From Patescibacteria group bacterium (GTDB lineage Bacteria; Patescibacteriota; Microgenomatia; UBA1406; GWC2-37-13): DNA of 64,000 nucleotides. The notes under the pieces were generated by a model. It searched no databases. It was not told where the DNA came from and saw only the letters and a list, made by a program, of their open reading frames with translations. The stretch is taken from NCBI GenBank assembly GCA_026004415.1, contig BPJC01000001.1, positions 186,001-250,000 of the forward strand. Reading direction: 5' to 3'. The translations under genes were made by a program, and so were the position numbers. Position 1 is the stretch's first letter; each line of letters begins with the position of its first letter. This document shows, one piece after another, positions 49,518-60,564 of this stretch.

Positions 49518-51140
49518 TTATACTTCAAAAGTATCGGGATGTAGTTCAGATGGCTTAGAATGCACGCATGGGGTGCGTGAGGTCGCCGGTTCGAGTCCGG
49601 CCATCCCGACAAAATTGGAGGAGTGCGCTGAATTGGCTAAGGCACCGGTCTCGAGAACCGGCTCCCAGTTTTGGGAATGTGGGTTCGAATCCCCCCCTCT
49701 CCGCCAATTGGTATTCTGGGGGGAATTTAAAAGGGCACGCCAGCCGATTTTCCCTTCAAATTGGAATTTTTTACCTTTTAAAATAAAGTTCGAGCCGATA
49801 TTTTTTAGAAATGTTCGAATTTGAGAATTGTCGCTCTGCGACAATAGAATTTTGGCTTGGTTACTGGCTAAAATCATTTCTTTCATCGGTTCGAGCCAAT
49901 TATTTCCTGCTTGTTCAAAATCTTTAATCTTCTGTTGAATTTCCAGTTTTTCATTAAGAAGTTTCTGTTTTTTAGCTTGATATTCTTCCGGTTCAATGCC
50001 CTTGCCCTCAATGTAAAGATCAAGCAGTCTGTCCATTTTTCTTTCAATTGCCGCTTTTTGTTCTAAGAGATTTTGAACAAGTGATTTTGTTTCTTGCTTG
50101 GCCTGTTCCTTCTCTTTCTCAATTTCTGCCAACATCTTATCTGCCCAATCATCAGGTAAAGAGACTTTTTGAATTATTGCTTTTAGCTGTTCAACAAGTT
50201 TTTCTTCTCGCAAATATCTTTCATCGCATTTTTGCCTTTTCTTGGTGCAACGGTAATAAATGTGTCCCTTTTGAATTTCAGCAGTAATCATGCAACCGCA
50301 ATTTCCGCAACGCATAAGTCCTGAAAAAGCAAAGTTGTGTTTTCTTTTTCGCTTCTTCTTGCCTCTGTTATTCATTACTTGTTGAACAGTATCAAAAAGT
50401 TTCTTGGAAATAATTGGCTCGTGGCTTCCATCATACATTTCGCCATTGAACCTAAAGACACCATAGTAAAATGGATTTTTAAGCATTCGCTGGACACAGG
50501 AAACAGAAAGCACCTTGCCTTTATAGCTTCTTAGTCCAGCGTCTTTTAAAATTATGGCAATTGCTTTCAGGGTATATTCTCCGGTTGCGTATAATTTGAA
50601 CGCTTTTCTAATAAGCGGTGCTTTCTCTGGATCAATATCTATCCCTTTTGTCTTATGGTTATTGAGATATCCAAGAGGGGCAAAGCTGGGCCAAATGCCT
50701 TTTCGTAGTTTTGCTCGGTGCCCTCGTTTAATGTTTTCTGAAAGATTATCTATGTAATATTTGCTTTGCCCAAAGGCAATATTCAACATAAACTTGCCTT
50801 GCGGCGTATTATCAAACCAAAAATTAGGAAATTTTAAATCTTTAAGTTTTCCTGTGTCCAGCAGATAGATAATCCTTCCGCCATCAATGGAATTTCTTGC
50901 TAATCTATCAGGGTGCCAAGCCAAAATTCCTTGGGCTTCGCCCTTTTCAATTCTGTCTAACATTTCGCCGAACACAGTTCGGCCAGGTTCTTTGGCAGTT
51001 TTTGCCTCGCAAAGCGAGGCGACGATTTCAAGTTTTTCTTTGGCGGCAAATTCTTTTAGCTCAGCAAGCTGAGCTTCAATTGATAAAACCTGTCTTTCTT
51101 CGCTGTCTGTTGATTTTCTGGCATAAATGAAATATTTCAT
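49518..51140 (-). CDS. Large serine recombinase (site-specific integrase)
   Basis: Catalyses DNA strand exchange at att sites. Resolvase domain with Ser10 (IYARKSTDSEE) and Arg-rich LAWHPDRLARNSIDG, recombinase domain (GIWPSFAPLGYLNNHKTKG), zinc ribbon (CGNCGCMI ... CTKKRQKC) and a coiled coil (LLEQKAAIERKMDRLLDLYI). The normal C-terminus seen in other copies is NTNWRCLFEKIRTDFAQNR, then stop. Here NTNWR runs across the att core into antisense tRNA-Ser and tRNA-Pro and stops only at 49518, adding about 60 aberrant residues. It has an AAGGTG Shine-Dalgarno-like motif 6 nt before the ATG, rare in this window. Confidence 0.93.
   Translation of the reverse strand: MKYFIYARKSTDSEERQVLSIEAQLAELKEFAAKEKLEIVASLCEAKTAKEPGRTVFGEMLDRIEKGEAQGILAWHPDRLARNSIDGGRIIYLLDTGKLKDLKFPNFWFDNTPQGKFMLNIAFGQSKYYIDNLSENIKRGHRAKLRKGIWPSFAPLGYLNNHKTKGIDIDPEKAPLIRKAFKLYATGEYTLKAIAIILKDAGLRSYKGKVLSVSCVQRMLKNPFYYGVFRFNGEMYDGSHEPIISKKLFDTVQQVMNNRGKKKRKRKHNFAFSGLMRCGNCGCMITAEIQKGHIYYRCTKKRQKCDERYLREEKLVEQLKAIIQKVSLPDDWADKMLAEIEKEKEQAKQETKSLVQNLLEQKAAIERKMDRLLDLYIEGKGIEPEEYQAKKQKLLNEKLEIQQKIKDFEQAGNNWLEPMKEMILASNQAKILLSQSDNSQIRTFLKNIGSNFILKGKKFQFEGKIGWRALLNSPQNTNWRRGGDSNPHSQNWEPVLETGALANSAHSSNFVGMAGLEPATSRTPCVHSKPSELHPDTFEV
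49535..49609 (+). tRNA. tRNA-Pro (anticodon GGG)
   Basis: Acceptor CGGGATG/CATCCCG is perfect. Anticodon stem CACGC/GCGTG holds loop ATGGGGT; T arm GCCGG-TTCGAGT-CCGGC; discriminator A; CCA not encoded. Confidence 0.95.
49617..49703 (+). tRNA. tRNA-Ser (anticodon CGA), island attachment site
   Basis: Class II tRNA with anticodon loop CTCGAGA in stem CCGGT/ACCGG, long variable arm, T loop TTCGAAT, discriminator G and encoded CCA (49704-49706). Two mispairs are visible: A6 with C67 in the acceptor, and T with C in the T stem. The 3' end CCGCCA is also the first part of the recombinase att core, so the island is joined exactly here. Confidence 0.9.
49701..49760 (-). repeat. Left arm of the perfect 60-bp inverted repeat (att core plus recombinase 3' end)
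   Basis: From CCGCCAATTGG to the complement of FEGK codons, this is identical over 60 of 60 bases to the reverse complement of 51215-51274. Homology stops exactly at the core on the outer side: tRNA-Ser here, recombinase tail there. Confidence 0.95.
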
Positions 51141-51214
51141 AGTTTCACCTTAAGAATAGATTTCGAAAAAGCCCGCTTTTGGCCTGCGTGCTTTGCACGC
51201 AAAGGTAAAAAATA

Positions 51215-51274
51215 TTTGAAGGGAAAATCGGCTGGCGTGCCCTTTTAAATTCCCCCCAGAATACCAATTGGCGG
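51215..51274 (+). repeat. Right arm of the 60-bp inverted repeat; recombinase 3' end copy with native tail
   Basis: Read forward it encodes EGKIGWRALLNSPQNTNWR, then continues past the core as CLFEKIRTDFAQNR and TAA (51314-51316). This is the tail the resident recombinase lacks, so it shows the likely original C-terminus. It also provides an inverted core site 1.57 kb from the tRNA copy. Confidence 0.92.
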
Positions 51275-51393
51275 TGCCTGTTCGAAAAAATTCGAACCGA
51301 TTTCGCCCAAAACCGATAAAACTCGCGGGGTGGGCGGCATTCCCCCCAGACCCCCCTTCCGCCCGCCCCGCGGAAGGCGACCTTTTCGGATTG
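51270..51393 (+). repeat. Cassette 1 left terminal inverted repeat
   Basis: A 124-bp sequence matching the reverse complement of 56998-57121 at 122 of 124 positions. It begins at the att core, contains the recombinase tail codons and a GC-rich hairpin region (GGGCGGCATTCCCCCC, CCGCCCGCCCCGCGG) and ends CCTTTTCGGATTG. It is followed by a 51394-51444 end sequence (GCCAAAGAACCTG, ATCGGCTCGAACTTTATTTT) also found at the start of cassette 2. Confidence 0.92.
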
Positions 51394-51485
51394 AAAAACT
51401 GCCAAAGAACCTGAAAAAATATCGGCTCGAACTTTATTTTGGCCAAAAGCGGGCTTTTTCTCATCTCTGACTTGTAAAAATTTGC

Positions 51486-51554: not shown

Positions 51555-51764
51555 ATGGAAAATAATCAAGGCAATAAATTAGGAAAGAAAATCAAGAAGT
51601 TAAGAACTGGTTTTGGTTTGTCTCAAGACGAACTTGCCCGCAAGGCCGATGTGCCTTATACGACTTTAACCAAGATAGAGACAGGGGTTATTAAAAAACC
51701 TTCGGTATATGTGGTGGCAAAAATTGCAAAGGCGTTGAATATTTCAATCGAGGAATTAATATAA
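51555..51764 (+). CDS. XRE-family regulator of cassette 1
   Basis: The 69 residues are a single Cro/C1-type helix-turn-helix (LRTGFGLSQDELARKADVPY, TTLTKIETG) ending KIAKALNISIEELI. It resembles control (C) proteins of restriction systems in size and position: immediately upstream of the methyltransferase, whose ATG follows its stop directly. A close relative opens cassette 2. Confidence 0.88.
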   Translation: MENNQGNKLGKKIKKLRTGFGLSQDELARKADVPYTTLTKIETGVIKKPSVYVVAKIAKALNISIEELI

Positions 51765-53141
51765 ATGAATTTAGTAAATATGAATAATGTAAGCATAAAA
51801 AAAGAAGATATTGAAGAATTAAAATCTGACACGAAAAAGTTATATTCATTCGTAAAGACAGAAAATAATGGCAGGTTGTTTTTTGTATTAAATAAATTAG
51901 GTAAATTACCATATGATTTTGATGATGCTCCACTTTTGTATTTAATAGATCATAAAGATGCAAAGATTAGATATTTAGCTATTAAAAATTTGGCTAAACT
52001 GGGAAAATTTTCGTTATTTCCTGTATTTAAAAAAGTTATTGCTAATGATCCAAGTGCGGATGTAAGAAGAGAGGCAACTTCTGCTATAGGTCGATTACGT
52101 AACTCAAAAGCCATTCCTTTCCTTATTGAATTATTAAAAGATCCCGATCCCGAAGTAGTCATGCAAGCTATTAGGGGGCTTCTTGTTTTTAAGAACAACC
52201 AGTTAGTCGCAAAAGAATTAAAGAAACTAAAAGATCATCCCAACGAAATAATTCAAGATGTTATTAAAAAGGAATTTTTCCCAAAAGCCCCCAAAAAGAA
52301 TTCCTTTAAACATACAGAATTTCCTGACTTTCTTAGAAACAAGGTAGTTCTTGGAGATGTGCAAGAAATAATTAAGTACGTCCCAGACGAGTCAGTTCAT
52401 CTTACCTTTACATCACCGCCTTACTATAATGCTAGAGATTATTCAATCTATCAAAGCTATGAACAATACTTGAAATTTTTGGAAAGAGTTTTTAAGGAAG
52501 TTCATAGAATTACTAAAGAAGGTCGTTTCTTTATTTTAAATACCTCGCCTATTATCATATCTCGTGTTAGCAGACAACATGCTAGTAGACGGTATCCTAT
52601 TCCTTATGATATTCATCCATTACTTGTAAAGATGGGGTGGGAATTTATAGACGATATTGTTTGGGTAAAACCAGAAGCAAGTGTTAAAAATCGCAATGCT
52701 GGATTTTTACAACATCGAAAACCACTTGCTTATAAACCTAATGCAAGAACAGAGATGGTTATGGTATACAGAAAAAAAACAGATAAGCTAATAGATTGGA
52801 ATATAAAACAATACAATCGAAAGACAGTTGAAGAAAGCAAGGTAATTGGAGATTACGAAACTTCAAATGTATGGGAAATCGATCCTGTGTTTGACAAAAC
52901 GCATAGTGCGGTTTTTCCATTGGAACTTTGTAAAAGGGTGATAAAATTTTATTCTTTCAAGGGGGATTTAGTTTTTGATCCTTTTGCTGGTAGTGGTACC
53001 CTAGGGAAGGCTGCTCAAATTCTAGGTAGACATTTTTTCTTAACCGAAATAGATCCAAAGTACTTTGAAAGAATTAAAGAAAATCTTGGTTTTATAGACG
53101 TAACCTATAGCGTTTTTAATAATTCTAAAAAATTACAATAA
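51765..53141 (+). CDS. HEAT-repeat / N4-C or N6-A DNA methyltransferase fusion
   Basis: Residues about 55-165 form HEAT/PBS-lyase-like repeats (DAKIRYLAIKNLAKLG, SADVRREATSAIGRLRNSKA, DPEVVMQAIRGLLVF). Residues about 190-450 are a beta-class methyltransferase with motif IV TSPPYY (216-221), target region in the middle, and the AdoMet motif DPFAGSGT near the C-terminus. SPPY usually means N4-cytosine or sometimes N6-adenine. It modifies host DNA against the next gene's nuclease. The HEAT fusion is unusual and may act in protein or DNA contact. Confidence 0.88.
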   Translation: MNLVNMNNVSIKKEDIEELKSDTKKLYSFVKTENNGRLFFVLNKLGKLPYDFDDAPLLYLIDHKDAKIRYLAIKNLAKLGKFSLFPVFKKVIANDPSADVRREATSAIGRLRNSKAIPFLIELLKDPDPEVVMQAIRGLLVFKNNQLVAKELKKLKDHPNEIIQDVIKKEFFPKAPKKNSFKHTEFPDFLRNKVVLGDVQEIIKYVPDESVHLTFTSPPYYNARDYSIYQSYEQYLKFLERVFKEVHRITKEGRFFILNTSPIIISRVSRQHASRRYPIPYDIHPLLVKMGWEFIDDIVWVKPEASVKNRNAGFLQHRKPLAYKPNARTEMVMVYRKKTDKLIDWNIKQYNRKTVEESKVIGDYETSNVWEIDPVFDKTHSAVFPLELCKRVIKFYSFKGDLVFDPFAGSGTLGKAAQILGRHFFLTEIDPKYFERIKENLGFIDVTYSVFNNSKKLQ

Positions 53142-53142
53142 T

Positions 53143-54057
53143 ATGAGCATTACATTATCATCAGAAGTTACAAAAAACATTATTAAAAAATTATTAAGAG
53201 GTGAAGACTATCGTATTGAAGTCGTTACCCTTATTAATGCTGAATTTCTACAGTATGCGATAGAATTTTTTAAAAAAATAGTTGATGCAAAATTAAAAAA
53301 CGAAAATATCACAGCAGATTGGTATAAGAAAGAATTTTTGAATGAGAACTTGTCATCCGATGAGATAGCTATCAATTCTGGACTTAATAAAAAAACAATT
53401 TCTAATATGTACAATTCAGCCAGAAAAGAAATTGTCATTGAAGCAGCTTTTGAACATTACGAAACTCTATATAATTCAATTCAAAAATTAATTGAGGATG
53501 ATGGTGATTTAAACATAACTCTAACTATAAAGTTGAAAGGAGTAAGTGTTGATTTAAATATAAGCGAGAGCCTTATTGTTATTAATACACTTGCGGTAAA
53601 AAGAGCAGCTTTAAGAGGCGGTTTATGGAGTACAGCTGGCAAAAGAGTAGAAAAGCCATTAATGGAAACTCTTTGTTTGCTATTCGGGGTAGATAGGAGT
53701 AATTACAGAATTAAAAGTAAAAATACTGATAATGATTTAAGTTTTGAAAGAGAAATTGATTTTTATTTGGTCAAAGGAGATGAAGAATATAAATGTGAAG
53801 TCAAACTAATGGGGAAAGGTAACCCGGAAAGTGCAGATGCAGTGATAGCTAGAGATAGTAGGGTTTTTGTGGCGGATAAATTATCGCAAACTAATAAAAA
53901 TCAACTTGATCATTTAGGCGTTGAATGGGTCGAATTAAGGTCTTCAAATGGATATCTACGCTTTGCAACGGTATTAGATAATTTAGAAATACCACACAGA
54001 AATATAACCGGATTTACTGAAGAAGAATTAGAGAATATATTTAAGCAAATTTTTTAG
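53143..54057 (+). CDS. PD-(D/E)XK type II restriction endonuclease, possibly CfrBI-like
   Basis: The catalytic core is visible: EREIDFYLV (Asp206) and YKCEVKLMG (Glu219, Lys221), the PD-(D/E)xK pattern. The preceding RGGLWSTAGKRVEKPLMETL resembles the CfrBI endonuclease family, whose methyltransferase is N4-cytosine specific, matching the partner gene; I have not been able to check this. The N-terminal half includes an HTH-like stretch (SSDEIAINSGLNKKTISNMY). It starts 1 nt after the methyltransferase stop. Confidence 0.75.
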   Translation: MSITLSSEVTKNIIKKLLRGEDYRIEVVTLINAEFLQYAIEFFKKIVDAKLKNENITADWYKKEFLNENLSSDEIAINSGLNKKTISNMYNSARKEIVIEAAFEHYETLYNSIQKLIEDDGDLNITLTIKLKGVSVDLNISESLIVINTLAVKRAALRGGLWSTAGKRVEKPLMETLCLLFGVDRSNYRIKSKNTDNDLSFEREIDFYLVKGDEEYKCEVKLMGKGNPESADAVIARDSRVFVADKLSQTNKNQLDHLGVEWVELRSSNGYLRFATVLDNLEIPHRNITGFTEEELENIFKQIF

Positions 54058-54063
54058 TTAATT

Positions 54064-56907
54064 ATGAAATACAATAGTTTTTCTAAAGGATCAATTTGGC
54101 GAAAGTGGGATTTACAAATTCATGTCCCTGGAGCAAAACACGCTGATCAATACCAGACAGAAGACGGAGTTGATGTATGGGGAAAATTTATTGATTATAT
54201 CAGAAATTCAGATGTCGCTGTTTTTGGTGTAACTGATTACTTTTCTATTGAAAGTTATGAAACATTTCAGAGAAAAATAAAAGATATCCCAGAGTTAAAG
54301 AATAAAACTTTTTTCCCTTGTGTTGAGTTTAGGTTAGATATAAGTGTTAATCAAGATTCAGAACAGCTACAATGCCATCTTATTTTTGATAGTGAATACG
54401 ACATAAATAAAATAAAAAATTTCCTTATTCATCTCCCGTTAAAAAATAAAAAATCTAATGATGCAGTGGCTTATTGTACACATGACGATATTATGGCTTG
54501 TGGTGGCTATGATAGGGTGAGTATAACCAAAGAGAAATTAGAAAAATCTCTTAAAGATTCATTTGGCAATGAGCGCCCATTTTTAATAGCTGGTGTTGCT
54601 AGTGGTATGGGAAGTAATAGAGCCGATGCTAACAGTAATATCAAAAAAGAATTATCGGATATTTTTGATGATTTCTGTGATTTATTCTTTGGACACGAAG
54701 GAAATAGAAAATATTTCTTGAAAAAGGATAGGTATGAAAACAAAGAGAAAATAGCCAAAGCAAAACCTGTAGTCTCCACTTCTGACTGTCATACTTTTGA
54801 TGATTGCGAAAGAAAATTAGGCAAAAAATTTGTAGTTAGAGACCAAAAAGGCAATGATCTTGAAAGATATGGTTTTAGTTGGATAAAAGCAGATACGACT
54901 TTTGAAGGATTAAGGCAAATTATTTTCGAACCAATTGATAGAGTCGCTTTTGGTTATGAGGAGCCAGAACCGAAAAAATCTTATTACATCATTGATAAAG
55001 TACGATTTATTGATAATACCGGGCAAGACAACTTCCTCTCAGATCCTATTGAAATCAATAAAAATTTAACTACTATAATCGGCGGAAAATCGACTGGAAA
55101 ATCATTACTATTGTATTACATAGCCAAAACTATTGACAGAAAAGAAGTAGAAACTAGATTTGCTGATTATTCCATTGCTACTCAATACAACTTTGATGAT
55201 TCTCCAGATTTTAATTTTGAAGTAGTATGGGCGGATGGTGAGAGCACTTATCTTAAAAATGTTGAGGGTGATAATCATTCTGAGGAAAGGAAGATATTAT
55301 ATATACCACAAAATTACCTCAATAAACTTTCCGAGAAAAATGTTAAGAGCCGTGAGACACTAAATAAATTTGTTAAGGATGTCTTATTACAAGACGATGT
55401 AATACGAGAAAATTATGAAAACAATCTAGATAAAATTAAAAGATTGTCAAAATCAATTCCGGCAATTGTTGCTAACATTTTTCAAATTAAACAAGAAATT
55501 GATGAATTAGAAGAAAATATAAAACAACTCGGCAAGGAAAGCGGGATTAAAAAATACATTGCTCAGTTACAAAAGGAAGCTGACCATATAAAAAATAAAT
55601 CTGGACTTTCTGACCAAGAAATTAAAGAGTACGAGACGCTAATAGAAAAAGAAAAAAATACTACAACAAACATTGCTATTTTATTTGAGGATAAAAAGAC
55701 CCTCATTGCTTTTAGACAAAATTTGGTCAAACAATTGGAAGATTTAGAAAGATTGCGCGATGAGCAATCTTCTTATCTCGGCAATGAAGAGATCAAGAAA
55801 GATTTTATAAAAGAGTTTAGTGCAATTGCTCAAATAAAGGAAAATTTACGGATATCTGTTGAAAAAATAATTGCTTCAGTCGATGAAAAAATTAAAATTA
55901 ACAAAAAAGAGCTAGAAGAAATTAAGAAGAATCTAGCACCGTTTATGGCAAAAATTAAGTTGCAAGACGAATTGAGAAAAAAGAACGATGCAATACGAAA
56001 CGAACAAAAGAAACTTGATAAAATTACTCTTGAAAAGAAAAGTCTTGAATCAAAAAAGAACTTTTATGATAAAGAAAAGGGAAATCTTATTAATACATAT
56101 AAGGAAATTTTTAGTATCTACGATACGATAAGAAATGAATTTAAGAAATATGAAAATAAATTTGAAGACATATCTTTGAATGTCTCAGTTGGGTTTAATG
56201 AACAACAATTCAATGAAGAAGTCATAAATAATTTTCTAAATAAGCCGGATATAAAACGCAATACTGATGTGGCGTGGAAAGATGAATACGAATATCAATT
56301 TGATCCAAGTCGTCACTTAAATTTTATTAGCAACCTTCTTAATGGTATTTTTGATGGTAAAATAAGAACAATTAAAGGAAGAGCAGCGAAAGATGCTATC
56401 GTAAAAGTTTTAGAGAATTATTTTGATTTAGATTTTAAAATTGCCTACAAGAACGATCCTTTGGATAAGATGTCACCCGGCAAAAAAGGACTTGTGCTTC
56501 TGCGTATTCTAATTGATTTGAGTAATGAAGAATGGCCTATACTTTTGGATCAACCGGAAGATGACTTAGACAACAGATCTGTTTATGATGATCTTGTTTC
56601 GTTTGTGAAAAACAAGAAAAAGAAACGACAAATAATCATAGTGACACACAATCCCAATTTGGTTGTTGGTGCAGATGCTGAGCAAGTTATTGTTGCGAAT
56701 CAAGAAGGACAAGAAAAAGGAAGAGATAATAAAAAATTTAAATTTGAGTATGTTTCTGGTGCTTTAGAAAATGCTTTTGAATTATCAGAAGTCAAAGAAA
56801 AAGCTATATTATTTAGAAAAGGTATACGTCAGCATGTTTGTGAAATATTGGAGGGTGGAAAAGAAGCCTTTCAGAAGCGTGAACGGAAGTATAGTTTTAA
56901 CTCATAA
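54064..56907 (+). CDS. TrlF-like protein: PHP domain plus SMC-type AAA ATPase
   Basis: Residues 1-290 form a PHP-type metal hydrolase (WDLQIH at 15-20, TSDCHTFDD at 239-247). Then an ABC/SMC head: Walker A GGKSTGKS (340-347), about 350 residues of coiled coil, signature MSPGKKGLVLL and Walker B WPILLDQPEDDLD, with H-loop IIVTHNPN. The order matches TrlF-family ATPases known from defence islands. It follows the endonuclease by 6 nt and probably acts as an additional, DNA-end- or translation-sensing defence effector; target unknown. Confidence 0.82.
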   Translation: MKYNSFSKGSIWRKWDLQIHVPGAKHADQYQTEDGVDVWGKFIDYIRNSDVAVFGVTDYFSIESYETFQRKIKDIPELKNKTFFPCVEFRLDISVNQDSEQLQCHLIFDSEYDINKIKNFLIHLPLKNKKSNDAVAYCTHDDIMACGGYDRVSITKEKLEKSLKDSFGNERPFLIAGVASGMGSNRADANSNIKKELSDIFDDFCDLFFGHEGNRKYFLKKDRYENKEKIAKAKPVVSTSDCHTFDDCERKLGKKFVVRDQKGNDLERYGFSWIKADTTFEGLRQIIFEPIDRVAFGYEEPEPKKSYYIIDKVRFIDNTGQDNFLSDPIEINKNLTTIIGGKSTGKSLLLYYIAKTIDRKEVETRFADYSIATQYNFDDSPDFNFEVVWADGESTYLKNVEGDNHSEERKILYIPQNYLNKLSEKNVKSRETLNKFVKDVLLQDDVIRENYENNLDKIKRLSKSIPAIVANIFQIKQEIDELEENIKQLGKESGIKKYIAQLQKEADHIKNKSGLSDQEIKEYETLIEKEKNTTTNIAILFEDKKTLIAFRQNLVKQLEDLERLRDEQSSYLGNEEIKKDFIKEFSAIAQIKENLRISVEKIIASVDEKIKINKKELEEIKKNLAPFMAKIKLQDELRKKNDAIRNEQKKLDKITLEKKSLESKKNFYDKEKGNLINTYKEIFSIYDTIRNEFKKYENKFEDISLNVSVGFNEQQFNEEVINNFLNKPDIKRNTDVAWKDEYEYQFDPSRHLNFISNLLNGIFDGKIRTIKGRAAKDAIVKVLENYFDLDFKIAYKNDPLDKMSPGKKGLVLLRILIDLSNEEWPILLDQPEDDLDNRSVYDDLVSFVKNKKKKRQIIIVTHNPNLVVGADAEQVIVANQEGQEKGRDNKKFKFEYVSGALENAFELSEVKEKAILFRKGIRQHVCEILEGGKEAFQKRERKYSFNS

Positions 56908-56928
56908 TATTATAATTAGAATATAAAA

Positions 56929-56998
56929 GAATTTGCCGCCAAGCTCGGTAGAGCCGAGCAATCCGCCCTTGGCGGATTAGAAAAACTTGAAATCGTCC
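56929..56998 (+). repeat. Cassette 1 right end: two hairpins, covarying with cassette 2
   Basis: Starts 22 nt after the TrlF stop. GAATTTGCCGCCAA is followed by hairpin 1 (GCTCGG-TAGAG-CCGAGC) and hairpin 2 (AATCCGCC-CTT-GGCGGATT), then AGAAAAACTTGAAATCGTCC. At 60281-60350 the same unit has changed loops and a compensated stem pair. Confidence 0.85.
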
Positions 56999-57121
56999 AA
57001 TCCGAAAAGGTCGCCTTCCGCGGGGCGGGCGGAAGGGGGGTCTGGGGGGAATGCCGCCCGCCCCGCGAGTTTTATCGGTTTTGGACGAAATCGGTTCGAA
57101 TTTTTTCGAACAGGCACCGCC
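56998..57121 (-). repeat. Cassette 1 right terminal inverted repeat
   Basis: Matches the reverse complement of 51270-51393 with two differences. On the minus strand it encodes the recombinase tail CLFEKIRTDFVQNR and stop, preceded by a decayed 3' end (ASLNSNWR). Confidence 0.92.
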
Positions 57122-57182
57122 AGTTTGAATTTAAGGAAGCTGGCTCGCCCTCTGCGAGGGCTCGCCAGCGACCTCTTTTTCT
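57122..57182. repeat. Hairpin spacer between the two cassettes
   Basis: About 60 bp between oppositely facing att cores. It contains an imperfect palindrome, CTGGCTCGCCCTC and GAGGGCTCGCCAG around TGC, with no gene. Confidence 0.6.
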
Positions 57183-57297
57183 AACTGGCGGTGTGTATTT
57201 GAAAAAATCCGAATCGATTTCATTAACGAGCTCAGCGGGCGGAATTCTCCCTGAACCCCTCTTCCGTCCGCCTCGCCCTGAAGCGGAAGCGAAAAGG
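57183..57297 (+). repeat. Cassette 2 left terminal inverted repeat
   Basis: Begins AACTGGCGGTGTGTATTTG and ends GCGGAAGCGAAAAGG. It pairs with the reverse complement of 60349-60466 at roughly 85-90% and differs from the cassette 1 repeats in its inner half, so each cassette has its own matched pair. The recombinase tail here reads CVFEKIRIDF. Confidence 0.85.
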
Positions 57298-57321
57298 CAA
57301 ACCGCCAAAGAACCTGAAAAA

Positions 57322-57541
57322 ATGTCGGCTCGAACTTTATTTTGGCCAGAAACAATAGGTGAGAATATCAAAAAATACCGCAATAAACTTGGTATGAAGC
57401 AAGACGATTTAGTAAGAAAGTCTGGTGTTAAGCACACCACCCTTACAAAAATTGAAGGCGACTTTGTGCAAAAACCAAGCGTTCAAGTTATAGCGAATCG
57501 CTAAAGCGTTGGACGTTTCAATTGAAGAATTGTTAAAATAA
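57322..57541 (+). pseudogene. XRE-family regulator of cassette 2, frameshifted near its end
   Basis: WPETIGENIKKYRNKLGMKQ and DLVRKSGVKHTTLTKIEGDF match the cassette 1 XRE. After KPSVQVIA the sequence lacks two A residues (near 57493-57495) and stops at TAA 57502-57504; in the shifted frame it continues IAKALDVSIEELLK to the TAA at 57539-57541. The ATG at 57322 lies inside the cassette-end repeat, where cassette 1 has ATA. The break removes only the last helix. Confidence 0.75.
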
Positions 57542-57545
57542 ACTT

Positions 57546-58190
57546 ATGAAAAAGAACAAAGTATTTTTTGACATGAGTATGTCGTTCGATGGTTTCATCG
57601 CCCCGGAAGGGATGGATATGGAGCACGCGGATAACCCGGAATATAAGCAGTGGCTCAACAAGTGGATGGCGCTACAAAACTGGGTGTTCGAACAAAAGTT
57701 TTTTCGCGAGAATCTCAAACTCGGTGAAGACGGCAAAACAGGCGAAGAAAATCGTCTCGTTGAAGAAACATTCAACCGCACAGGCGTAAGCATCATGGGG
57801 TATAACATGTTCCAAGGCGGTGAAAAGTTCTGGCCGGAAGAAGCGCCATTCCACACGCCTGTGTTTGTTTTGACGCACACAGTTCGCAAGCCGTGGGAGC
57901 GTCCGGGCGGCACTACATTTTACTTCGTCAACGACGGCATAGAGAGCGCGCTTGAACAGGCAAAAAAGGCGGCAGGCGACAGAGACATACGGATAGCCGG
58001 CGGCGCCAATGTTGTTCAGCAGTACTTAAACGCTGGACTGATAGATGAATTCACCATTCACTACTCTCCGGTGTTTTTCGGAGGTGGTATACCTTTGTTT
58101 TTGAATATCAGAGACGACATACGATTTAAGATAACTAATACCATTATTTCAGATTTAACAACACACGTTACGTACGAAATTGAGAAATAG
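57546..58190 (+). CDS. RibD_C/dihydrofolate-reductase-like family protein
   Basis: The DHFR-like fold is seen in VFFDMSMSFDGFIAPEGMDM, a glycine-rich GVSIMGYNMFQGGEKFWPEE and RIAGGANVVQQYLNAGLIDEF with HYSPVFFGGGIPLF. These NADPH-dependent reductases are common in actinobacteria and Firmicutes; substrates are mostly unknown. Base composition is clearly richer in G+C than the chromosome, pointing to recent transfer. It starts 4 nt after the XRE stop. Confidence 0.85.
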   Translation: MKKNKVFFDMSMSFDGFIAPEGMDMEHADNPEYKQWLNKWMALQNWVFEQKFFRENLKLGEDGKTGEENRLVEETFNRTGVSIMGYNMFQGGEKFWPEEAPFHTPVFVLTHTVRKPWERPGGTTFYFVNDGIESALEQAKKAAGDRDIRIAGGANVVQQYLNAGLIDEFTIHYSPVFFGGGIPLFLNIRDDIRFKITNTIISDLTTHVTYEIEK

Positions 58191-58262
58191 GAACTTAAAT
58201 GACACCTATCTCAGTTCCGCATGAACATTAATACGAACTGTGGCAATTTTTAACAAAAAAAG

Positions 58263-58268
58263 TATAAT
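58263..58268 (+). promoter_or_regulatory. -10 box (TATAAT) of the second RibD-like gene
   Basis: TATAAT is 6 nt before the ATG at 58275, again without a Shine-Dalgarno motif. Confidence 0.45.
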
Positions 58269-58274
58269 ACATAT

Positions 58275-58847
58275 ATGAGAAAAATAATTGCGACGGAATT
58301 TTACACCATTGATGGCCTCATGTCTGACCCAGATGATAAAATGGATTGGGTTAGTGAAAACTTAACCCCAGACATGGGCAAAGCTATAGATGAAGTATAC
58401 AAAAGAATTGACACGCTCTTTCTGGGCGCGACTACGTATAAAATCATGGCGGCATATTGGCCGACCGCCGACACCAATCCTAACGCATTTGAGGGAGACG
58501 CCGAGTTTGCATCAGTTATTAATAATCTCAAAAAAATTGTGTTTGCCAAGACCGCACTTGAACCAGAATAGGCAAATACGGAATTTCGACCAAGTATCGA
58601 TGCGGATGAGATAAGAAAAATGAAGAATAATCCGGGTAAAGATATGCTCATTGCGGGGAGTGCGTCGATCGTACAGCAATTCACCAATTTAAGTTTAGTC
58701 GACGAATATCATTTACTGGTTCATCCAGTCATTCTTGGCAAAGGAAAGCCCCTATTTCAAAATATCACTAATAAACATCCGCTAAAACTCCTCGAAACAA
58801 GAATCTTTGAGAACGGTGATGTGCTACTACACTATCAAATACGGTAA
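58275..58847 (+). pseudogene. Second RibD_C/DHFR-like gene with an in-frame TAG
   Basis: One continuous frame encodes IIATEFYTIDGLMSDPDDKM ... VFAKTALEPE, then TAG at 58569-58571, then ANTEFRPSIDADEIRKMKNN ... MLIAGSASIVQQFTNLSLVD and VHPVILGKGKPLFQN to the TAA at 58847. Relatives commonly have Trp at this place (xEWxNT), so a single TGG to TAG change explains it. The rest is undamaged, implying a recent nonsense mutation or suppression. Confidence 0.8.
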
Positions 58848-58874
58848 AGTTGTTATGCTGCCAAAGAAAATCAA

Positions 58875-59267
58875 ATGAAAAATCTAAACTATACAAACCA
58901 GAAACAAATACTCGAGGTGATAAAGCAGTGGGAAGAGGCGGTATGCTCTGGAGATATAAAAGGCATACTCGCCAATCATACAAAGGACATTATAATGTTT
59001 GATGTGCCGGAACCACTGCAATCGAAAGGGCTTGCGGCGTACAAAAAGACGTGGGATTTGTTCTACCGGTACGGTGCACCAAGTAAAGACATTTTTATTA
59101 TTGAAGATCTAAAAATTACCGCTGGAAATGATGTAGCATTTGCGACCGGCTTGTTGCGCATTGGTGGTTCAAAGAAGCCGATATGCCGTTTGACGCTGGG
59201 ATTAAAGAAAATACGGGGAAAATGGCTCATTGCCCATGAACATAACTCCGCGCCGCATAAACTATGA
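58875..59267 (+). CDS. SnoaL-like (NTF2 fold) protein
   Basis: The 130 residues follow the SnoaL/DUF4440 pattern: QILEVIKQWEEAVCSGDIKG, HTKDIIMFDVPEPLQSKGL, LFYRYGAPSKDIF and the end GKWLIAHEHNSAP. The family includes isomerases, lyases and many ligand-binding proteins of unknown substrate. Composition resembles the neighbouring reductase genes. Confidence 0.82.
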   Translation: MKNLNYTNQKQILEVIKQWEEAVCSGDIKGILANHTKDIIMFDVPEPLQSKGLAAYKKTWDLFYRYGAPSKDIFIIEDLKITAGNDVAFATGLLRIGGSKKPICRLTLGLKKIRGKWLIAHEHNSAPHKL

Positions 59268-59285
59268 TCTAATTAAATTAGAAAT

Positions 59286-59435
59286 ATGAAAAATACCATT
59301 ACAACGTGTCTTGGGTTTATAGACAACGCAGAAGAAGCCGTCAAAATGTACGTTGATCTATTTAGTTCTGTTTTTGGAAATTCAACAATACTACAAAAAA
59401 CGTACTTCAAAGAGCTTGCGAAAGACTCTGATGAT
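59286..59435 (+). pseudogene. Truncated PhnB/VOC (glyoxalase-like) gene
   Basis: TTCLGFIDNAEEAVKMYVDL is the N-terminus of the PhnB/3-demethylubiquinone-methyltransferase-like group of VOC proteins. After about 50 residues (KELAKDSDDL) the gene runs into a cassette-end repeat and is lost; normal length is about 150. Confidence 0.75.
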
Positions 59436-59560
59436 TTGCCGCCAAAGAAAAACTTAAAATCGTCCCCCAGTAGTAGAACGCTTCGCGTTCACTACGGGGC
59501 GGGCTTTTCGCTTCCGCTTCAGGGCGAGGTGGGCGGGAAAAGAGGATTTGCAAAGAAGCC
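59433..59560 (+). repeat. Remnant cassette end inside cassette 2
   Basis: TTTGCCGCC joins directly to AAAGAAAAACTTAAAATCGTCC: the same end unit as at 56929 and 60281 but with both hairpins precisely missing. A hairpin (CCCAGTAG...CTACGGGG with GAACGC-TTC-GCGTTC) and GC-rich repeat sequence follow (CGCTTCCGCTTCAGGGCGAG). So cassette 2 is composite. From here to 59703 I see no gene. Confidence 0.75.
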
Positions 59561-59703
59561 AGGTGTGAGATATAATATAAAAATAACAAGATTTAAGGTA
59601 GGGCTATGAAAATAATGTCCGTTATCATAAAAGCAAATTGTGAAAATTATCATCGTTTCTATTTAGGATTTATTAAAATAAATTTTGAAGAGAAAATTCT
59701 GTT

Positions 59704-60279
59704 ATGCAAAATTTAGAACAATCAAAGAAAGATGCTCTTAGCATATTACGGCAACAACTTGAAAGTGCTGGGATTGATGTTTCTGAATGGGGAAAAGGGC
59801 AAGCAAAAACATTAGCGCATCTCCAAAAGGAAATTGAGAGCGGTGAAACCGTTTTGGTAAAAGGCGAACAAGGGGAACTTTTAAGAAGGGTTTTAGTCTG
59901 CGGCGCCGATATTTTCTATATTTCACCCGACGGTAAAAAATATCGTTTGAAAGAATATAAGCAGGTTTTCAAAGATGGTCGTGAGAGAAGAAGAAATTTG
60001 GGACAAGCAGTATCAGAAAAAATGAAGCCGGGTGAAGATCCAGAAAATGCAATGATTCGTGGGGTAAGAGAAGAGCTCGGCATAGAAGGAGAAATATCTT
60101 TAGTAGAAACAGGTGTCGAGGAACAATTACTTTCTTCTCCTAGTTACCCCGGTTTACAATCCCAATATATTCGTCATATCTTTGAAATAACTTTGAACGA
60201 TCAACAGTTTAAACCAGAGGGATATTTAGAAGAACAAGACGATAAGATCACCTATTTTGTTTGGGAAGAAACCAAATAA
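59704..60279 (+). CDS. NUDIX-like protein
   Basis: Residues about 95-190 look like a NUDIX hydrolase: RNLGQAVSEKMKPGEDPENA followed by MIRGVREELGIEGE. The box REUxEExGU is modified to RGVREELGI, so the first Glu is Gly and catalysis is uncertain. The N-terminal ~90 residues (ALSILRQQLESAGIDVSEWG) are a separate small domain. It ends 1 nt before the cassette end repeat. Confidence 0.75.
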   Translation: MQNLEQSKKDALSILRQQLESAGIDVSEWGKGQAKTLAHLQKEIESGETVLVKGEQGELLRRVLVCGADIFYISPDGKKYRLKEYKQVFKDGRERRRNLGQAVSEKMKPGEDPENAMIRGVREELGIEGEISLVETGVEEQLLSSPSYPGLQSQYIRHIFEITLNDQQFKPEGYLEEQDDKITYFVWEETK

Positions 60280-60280
60280 G

Positions 60281-60350
60281 GAATTTGCCGCCAAGCTCGG
60301 CAAAGCCGAGCAATCCGACAAAGTCGGATTAGAAAAACTTGAAATCGTCC
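60281..60350 (+). repeat. Cassette 2 right end: two hairpins
   Basis: GAATTTGCCGCCAA, hairpin 1 (GCTCGG-CAAAG-CCGAGC), hairpin 2 (AATCCGAC-AAA-GTCGGATT), then AGAAAAACTTGAAATCGTCC. Compared with 56929-56998 only loops and one compensated pair differ. Confidence 0.85.
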
Positions 60351-60466
60351 TTTTCGCTTCCGCTTCAGGGCGAGGCGGGCGGAAGAGGGGTTCGGGGGGA
60401 ATTCCGCCCGCCGAGCCAATTATTTAGAAAATCGGTTAGGATTTTTTCAAATACACACCGCCAGTT
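60349..60466 (-). repeat. Cassette 2 right terminal inverted repeat
   Basis: The reverse complement matches 57183-57297. On the minus strand it carries the recombinase tail CVFEKILTDF after the core. Confidence 0.85.
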
Positions 60467-60564
60467 GGTATTTTGGGGGATTTTTAAAAGATACGCAAGC
60501 TGATTTTTCTCTTCAAAATAAAATCTTCTACCTTTTAAAATAAATTTCGAGCCGATATTTTTTA
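60458..60564 (-). pseudogene. 3' remnant of a second serine recombinase; right end of the island
   Basis: The minus strand encodes NIGSKFILKGRRFYFEEKNQ then LAYLLKIPQNTNWRCVF, clearly homologous to the resident recombinase (NIGSNFILKGKKFQFEGK ... NSPQNTNWR). The rest of the gene is gone: upstream lies the unrelated end of the next gene. This gives the direct-repeat partner of 49701-49807. Confidence 0.88.

Follow-up and report, generated by a model that had tools for sequence, protein, structure and literature searches.

The window analysed here, a 64,000-nucleotide stretch of contig BPJC01000001.1 from a Patescibacteria group bacterium (GenBank assembly GCA_026004415.1), carries a mobile element whose large serine integrase gene (int) lies between two inverted copies of its own 3' end and runs into the adjacent tRNA-Ser(cga) gene. 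We consider that this arrangement is probably best explained by a bacterial serine-type 'suicidal' integrase, with a phage-type attachment site (attP) inside its gene and a spare, inverted attP beside its start. The element would consist of two units, P-int-P, in which the inverted copies (P) enclose int, and P'-cargo-P', with every junction of P and P' constituting an attP. The attP at the 3' end of int would lie within the gene, P encoding the residues before the core and P' the C-terminal tail, such that recombination with the 3' end of a tRNA gene would join P to the tRNA and send P' to the far end of the element. The integrated enzyme would thereby be deprived of its natural tail and read antisense tRNA in its place; beside the int start the spare attP, which is inverted, would stay intact, with the lost tail still near at hand.

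Comparison of sequences documents the anatomy of the element, its conservation in the family, exact integration of a related element (at one empty site), the exchange of the tail, a near-fixed orientation, and the gift of a tail to an older integrase by a later integration. From these we infer that the integrase is silenced or altered once its tail is gone, which would lock the element in place, and that the tail-intact state, which is rare, is an unstable one; a sequence-only reading of this DNA was right in proposing that loss of the tail may be self-limiting. Tail loss is most simply viewed as following directly from integration by way of an attP that the gene contains.

Organization of the integrase locus

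The sequence-only reading had described perfect inverted repeats around the recombinase gene and an int frame that crosses into tRNA, and both descriptions are borne out. The two arms are 61 nt each and 100% complementary (Table 1), and the present int open reading frame (ORF; 49518-51140, minus strand) encodes 540 amino acids (aa), with antisense tRNA-Ser(cga) and tRNA-Pro from residue ~481. It had also correctly noted that the other repeat continues into CLFEKIRTDFAQNR and a stop, and that inversion of the segment would restore the family's other C-terminus and turn the gene away from the tRNA. Its further statement that this tail is found in every other copy is slightly overstated: the restriction-modification cassette has a second copy of the CLFEKIRTDFAQNR tail at its right end (...NWRCLFEKIRTDFVQNR, ORF 57072-57440), but the second cassette, next to it, encodes a differing version.

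Table 1. Features of the integrase locus and its cargo in the window (positions are those of the window).
Feature	Position	Strand	Remarks
3' arm (P half-site)	49701-49761	-	Final int codons, abutting the tRNA; pairs with the 5' arm as a 61-bp inverted repeat
5' arm	51214-51274	+	Repeats the int 3' end in inverted orientation ahead of the int start
Large serine integrase gene	49707-51140	-	478 codons as far as the tRNA junction; Resolvase, Recombinase and Zn_ribbon_recom domains
tRNA-Ser(cga), target gene	49617-49706	+	Its 3' end makes up the B half of attL as it now stands
tRNA-Pro	49535-49610		Read antisense by the int ORF
Tail-coding part of P' half-site	51275-51319	+	TGCCTG...TAA, encoding CLFEKIRTDFAQNR and a stop; spare attP together with the 5' arm
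P' arm opening the cargo unit	51260-51393	+	Pairs with 56998-57131 as a 134-nt inverted repeat (96%)
Inverted copies of int coding blocks (50984-51003, 49780-49806)	51394-51440	+	Two neighbouring copies; seen in many relatives
20-bp inverted copy of 51165-51184	51441-51460	+	Direct repeat once inverted; matches the junction of the int-less relic L057
Cargo	51555-56907	+	Helix-turn-helix (HTH) regulator, HEAT-N4/N6 methylase, CfrBI-type endonuclease, TrlF-family ATPase
Second P' arm	56998-57131	-	Right end of the restriction-modification cargo unit; partner of 51260-51393
Second cassette	57183-60466	+	Own P' arms at 57183-57297 and ~60349-60466; RibD_C, SnoaL-like and NUDIX genes; presumed older
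Remnant of another integrase 3' end	60458-60564	-	83% to 49701-49807; right edge of the island

Conservation of the two-unit plan

Homologous int loci were gathered at the levels of family, order and class, and a GTDB-wide scan contributed more, with the best 80 of 186 relatives retained; not every place listed was retrieved. The 205 matches in 195 loci gave 194 integrases after removal of duplicates, and 127 of these are readable on both flanks. An inverted repeat of the int 3' end (at least 40 bp) is located upstream of the gene in 115 of the 127, and in 146 of all 194 integrases, flanks permitting; control searches for a repeat in direct orientation and for a mid-gene segment each returned 0/127. 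Arms in the 115 elements are 44-159 bp long (median 99 bp) with a median identity of 97.7%, reaching at least 95% in 80 elements and 100% in 31. A tRNA gene lies antisense at the int 3' side in 106/127, and repeat and tRNA occur together in 96, where the targets are of 16 amino-acid kinds (Ser 17, Gln 13, Leu 13, Glu 9, Pro 7, Lys 7, Val 5, Ala 5, Ile 4, Trp 4, Gly 4, Arg 3, Cys 2, Tyr 1, Asn 1, Phe 1).

The family of elements is large and comes mostly from Patescibacteria, bacteria with tiny genomes. A genome of the same genus (G009) has an independent element of the same plan at another tRNA-Ser, with an integrase 81% identical over 472 residues. Schleiferia thermophila DSM 21410, a member of the Bacteroidota, has an integrase 95% identical in protein (locus L096, 8001-9443), which looks like a transfer across phyla; the surrounding genes, named by eye, are ordinary-looking chromosomal ones. 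Viral contigs yielded five distant integrase homologues (28-39%).

Beyond the upstream arm the order is P', cargo and an inverted copy of P'. The second P' copy is present in 66 of the 110 elements with at least 1.5 kb past the middle site, sequence stretches often stopping earlier, and the cargo units are 0.7-6.3 kb in size with a median P' arm identity of 98.9%. Nine small cargo units were viewed, and in most of them a single main gene fills the unit. An HTH gene as a constant component was rejected, as a homologue of the two window HTH proteins is found near the middle site in just 22/110.

The arms are ~97% alike within elements and 55-80% alike between nearest neighbours (medians by bin, 134 elements), and likeness within the element exceeds that between elements in 126/134. 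Site by site, 2896 of 2989 arm positions are mirrored, in a count of only ungapped pairs with arms at least 90% alike, in which reciprocal neighbours are counted twice. Between the loci L097 and L203, int DNA is 93% identical and the arms 56%. Some mechanism, for which gene conversion and selection are candidates, keeps the arms alike or makes them so, and inversion at the core alone would not. A palindromic core (CCAATTGG) as a cause of inversion was dropped, the palindrome not being kept in other elements, and folding of single-stranded arms into an attP, as in CTXphi, is unlikely, since a serine enzyme cuts both strands.

Attachment sites and an empty target

In 58 of 59 mapped tRNAs, 20 nt separate the T-loop GTTC from the discriminator base. 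A GTTC-like motif in P' is at 25 nt in 36 of the 59, was counted 10 times at 24 nt, and is at 20 nt in none, with the remainder giving no pattern match; the core bases shared by tRNA and P' number 3-5 in 53/59. In known serine integrases, according to PMC3783163, the zinc-domain motif of the bacterial site attB is 5 bp nearer the centre than that of attP. The same 5-bp shift between attB and attP of large serine integrases is observed here for most of the mapped tRNAs, and we therefore assign the tRNA as a B-type and P' as a P-type half-site. The junction beside the int start then reads as an intact, spare inverted attP. It follows from these half-site assignments, and from exact integration at an empty site, that the attP would lie inside the integrase gene and that the tail would be replaced upon integration.

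The empty site is at tRNA-Ser(tga), which is unoccupied in the window genome (CTCTCCG followed directly by CTGACC). In G009 the same tRNA-Ser(tga) holds an int-less element, with CTCTCCG followed by CCAATTAG at one end and GGCACCG followed by CTGACC at the far end. Over 1,861 bp the far flanks of the empty and filled sites are 99.6% alike, and what remains of the tRNA on the G009 contig (58 bp) is identical. To judge from these alignments, the G009 junctions are the exact reciprocal product of attP and attB, the element supplying the CCA end of the tRNA, and integration at this one locus is conservative and reciprocal at a very short core. By analogy with this site, the CCA of the window tRNA-Ser(cga) (49704-49706) would come from the element arm.

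We note that the 3' end of the window tRNA-Ser(cga) is CCCCCCCTCTCCGCCA, resembling tRNA-Ser(tga), and that of its counterpart in G009 is CCCACCTCCTCCGCCA; the acceptor and T stems of the window tRNA are then, by eye, mismatched, as if recombination in the T-loop had swapped the 3' end.

In the int-less element of G009 a 5'-type arm is joined to the tRNA, followed by the 20-bp repeat and then directly by the HTH gene. This layout is the remnant expected of a deletion between the 20-bp copies after inversion, or alternatively represents an independent int-less element. Among 80 genomes of the order, searched by DNA similarity only, there is no further int-less relic of the L057 type.

The C-terminal tail

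When int is read on into the P' of the element's middle site, the junction that a circle or an inversion would create, the predicted tail fits the strict pattern h-x-x-h-R-T-x-F in 91/115 elements. In 60 elements mapped without selection by motif, the R-T position falls in the int frame in 54 and in the shifted frames in 1 and 3; there are two phase classes (42 and 16 of the 60) in which motif and frame move together, and CGAAC, where present, is in frame in 45/49. In the same mapping a stop within 10 codons past the core is encountered in 3/60 in the int frame, and in 25 and 31 in the other frames. The frame is open as far as the core in 64/65, at distances of 30-79 codons from the GSN motif (59 measured). 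The frame thus appears to be kept open into the tail, and hence the tail is probably used. An AlphaFold2 model of the L129 integrase, in which the tail is in place, puts the tail in a C-terminal helix; the best PDB matches of this model by E-value are serine integrase complexes, with TM-scores of only 0.2-0.3 for what is a multi-domain model. The tails that integrated enzymes have at present follow no rule of length or sequence: L096 has 0 residues, others dozens.

Arrays and the return of a tail

Alternating arrays of P and P' units are present in the window and at loci L144 and L206. The inner integrase of L206 ends in CAFENIRTDFQNL and that of L138, a 34% homologue, in SLFEKIRTEFAGGGSRAEETQPPPAAAPF; each ending matches exactly the predicted tail of the outer, tRNA-adjacent element of its array. 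In a third such case, L144, the interior integrase takes its tail from the neighbouring cassette. On this sequence pattern, the first integrase appears to regain a tail when a further element integrates at the same tRNA. We suggest, tentatively and with more doubt than confidence, that the element has resurrection built in: integration would cut the tail and lock the element, and the spare attP would let a rare flip or a later integration return the tail and free the element together with its cassette.

Orientation of the integrase unit

Of 165 testable integrases, 138 have a tRNA at their 3' side, against 4 of 152 with one at the 5' side (L129, L165, L083 and L248). L129 (2753-4228) has the natural tail in place and arms of two types; L165 has a tRNA on both sides; the L248 arm is weakly alike to others; and in L083 and L248 the contig stops at the int 3' end, leaving the tail outside the sequence. 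The L129 integrase is 88% identical to an aligned relative from a tRNA-Trp locus, with a 3' end and tail of the tRNA-Ser type, and it is probably a chimera.

Copies of int blocks (~codons 46-53 and 445-454) are present at the start of P' in many elements, where they covary with the element's own int, and they mark one side of the cargo unit. Of 62 elements with both P' arms, 53 have the copies only on the int side, none only on the far side, 2 on both sides and 7 on neither. Because frequent flipping would have mixed the sides on which the copies are found, a cargo side that is fixed in this way disfavours it. The two attP copies of a circle are near-identical, and together with the orientation bias this suggests that the tail-intact integrated state is short-lived. 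Other routes have nonetheless left footprints, namely an int-less relic, the few junctions at the 5' side, and the arrays in which an older integrase received its tail from a later integration.

Alternative explanations

The sequence-only reading had gone further and proposed a reversible phase switch. In an active switch of this kind, the integrase itself or RecA would flip the int unit between attL and the spare attP, and the integrase tail would so be toggled. The likeness of arms within elements (31/115 identical) and their unlikeness between elements are in keeping with such a switch, as are the L057 relic (tRNA, 5' arm, 20-bp repeat and HTH gene in succession), which is expected from a deletion between repeats that are direct only after inversion, and the rare 5'-side tRNA junctions of L129, L165, L083 and, weakly, L248. 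However, the ratio of 138/165 to 4/152, a cargo side that is fixed in 53/62 and reversed in none, and the rule that known serine integrases recombine only attP with attB unless a helper is present (PMC3783163), which disallows attL with attP, all speak against it; moreover, the 5'-side junctions may have arisen by integration through the second attP, and L057 may be an independent int-less element. A switch that is actively inverted therefore seems unlikely. What had been named as speaking against it was a fixed orientation with diverging repeats in relatives, and the orientation is indeed nearly fixed, but the arms are ~97% alike within an element. It is less likely still that the natural-tail enzyme integrates and the tail-swapped enzyme excises, the tail thereby doing the work of a directionality factor: the swap does take place exactly at integration, as this would have it, but the present tails range arbitrarily from 0 residues (L096) to dozens, so that tail loss is the sole feature common to them. 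The thought that the repeats are an artefact of assembly or of chance can be dismissed for practical purposes; several contigs do end in or near arms, but the survey refutes it, with the repeat in 115/127 and the controls at 0/127, and the architecture is present in the isolate genome record of S. thermophila.

A more serious contender, which we nevertheless hold to be the lesser possibility, is that the spare attP serves stacking and cassette exchange, the inverted arms being there for cargo exchange and arrays and the tail swap being a neutral by-product. The alternating P and P' arrays (window, L144 and L206), the inner L138 integrase with the tail of the outer element, the differing cassettes of the window and G009 at the same core beside near-identical DNA, and the contrast of int DNA (93%) and arms (56%) in L097 and L203 all point this way, as does the failure of the ratio of nonsynonymous to synonymous substitution (dN/dS) in unchosen tails to separate the int frame from one shifted frame (0.50 and 0.50). 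Against it are the frame kept open past the core with R-T in frame, and the orientation bias between two near-identical attP copies, which a neutral tail leaves unexplained.

Several observations also weigh against the suicidal integrase that we favour. The exact empty site rests on one locus, that of an int-less relative. The R-T of the tail is the reverse complement of the attP GTTCG motif, so that its conservation alone is no proof of selection on the protein. The dN/dS of 0.40, as against 1.04 and 1.61 in the other frames, was obtained with tails chosen by a pattern demanding R and is circular, and in 40 unchosen tails of one phase class the int frame gives 0.50 and the others 0.50 and 1.27. 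Confidence in the AlphaFold2 tail helix is modest (pLDDT 61-72), with the tail present in 3/45 rows. The repeat is missing in 12/127 homologues, including the three most distant ones (L088, L089 and L093; 33-37%), and no tRNA was called at the 3' side in 21/127; these include array-internal copies and junctions at which ARAGORN calls no tRNA. Finally, a free circular form was not found, plasmid and phage collections giving no match above 60% identity.

Cargo cassettes and the island edge

The window cargo includes, next to a CfrBI-type restriction-modification pair, a TrlF-family AAA-like ATPase at 54064-56907 that scores above the cut-off of NCBIfam NF045780. At its left, 51394-51460 is composed of three side-by-side inverted copies, 20-27 bp each, of int coding and upstream sequence. 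At its right end, a stretch resembling int codons 30-43 and broken by a palindrome (56926-56998) reads as if it were a fragment of an old integrase. The short stretch between two cores at 57121-57183 resembles a miniature P-P unit lacking int, and in G009 a different neighbour cassette is attached at the same core.

Relationship to known systems

We found no description of this architecture in the literature as judged by titles and the starts of abstracts, most subscription papers and preprints being outside the search. Hin flips a promoter, and its own frame crosses no recombination site; Hin-type segments likewise have a recombinase gene between inverted recombination sites, but here the orientation is almost fixed. 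CTXphi, which also has inverted att copies, and integrons, with their small gene cassettes in arrays, employ tyrosine recombinases on folded single strands, whereas the enzyme here is of the serine type. The integrase is thus not the IntI tyrosine integrase by which integrons are recognized; no search was made for attC.

The features shared with the large serine integrases (A118/LI, phiC31, Bxb1) are the domains, the best structural matches by E-value, the 5-bp shift between attB and attP, and exact conservative integration. The differences are that attP here is within the int gene and encodes the C-terminus, that each element has two inverted attP copies, and that the targets are 3' ends of tRNA genes of many kinds. 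In P' the universal T-loop is mimicked at +5 bp, which suggests how a single family of enzymes could reach so many tRNA genes. The elements also offer a testable view of how cargo genes move in small, gene-poor bacteria, with a close copy in a cultivated bacterium, and integrases whose product is locked by design would be of interest to genome engineers.

The closest parallel is with the archaeal 'suicidal' integrases (SSV1, pTN3, pT26-2), which a 2021 review describes as tyrosine recombinases, exclusively archaeal, whose gene is split in two, with rescue by a later related element having been proposed (PMC8371274). If our interpretation is correct, self-inactivating integration, exclusive to archaeal tyrosine recombinases according to that review, extends to bacterial serine integrases. 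The two systems have in common an attP in the integrase gene, alteration of that gene by integration at a tRNA, and rescue, which is suggested here by the arrays; they differ in that the present enzyme is a bacterial serine integrase, that only a short tail is lost and there is no split into int(N) and int(C), and that an inverted spare half-site is kept.
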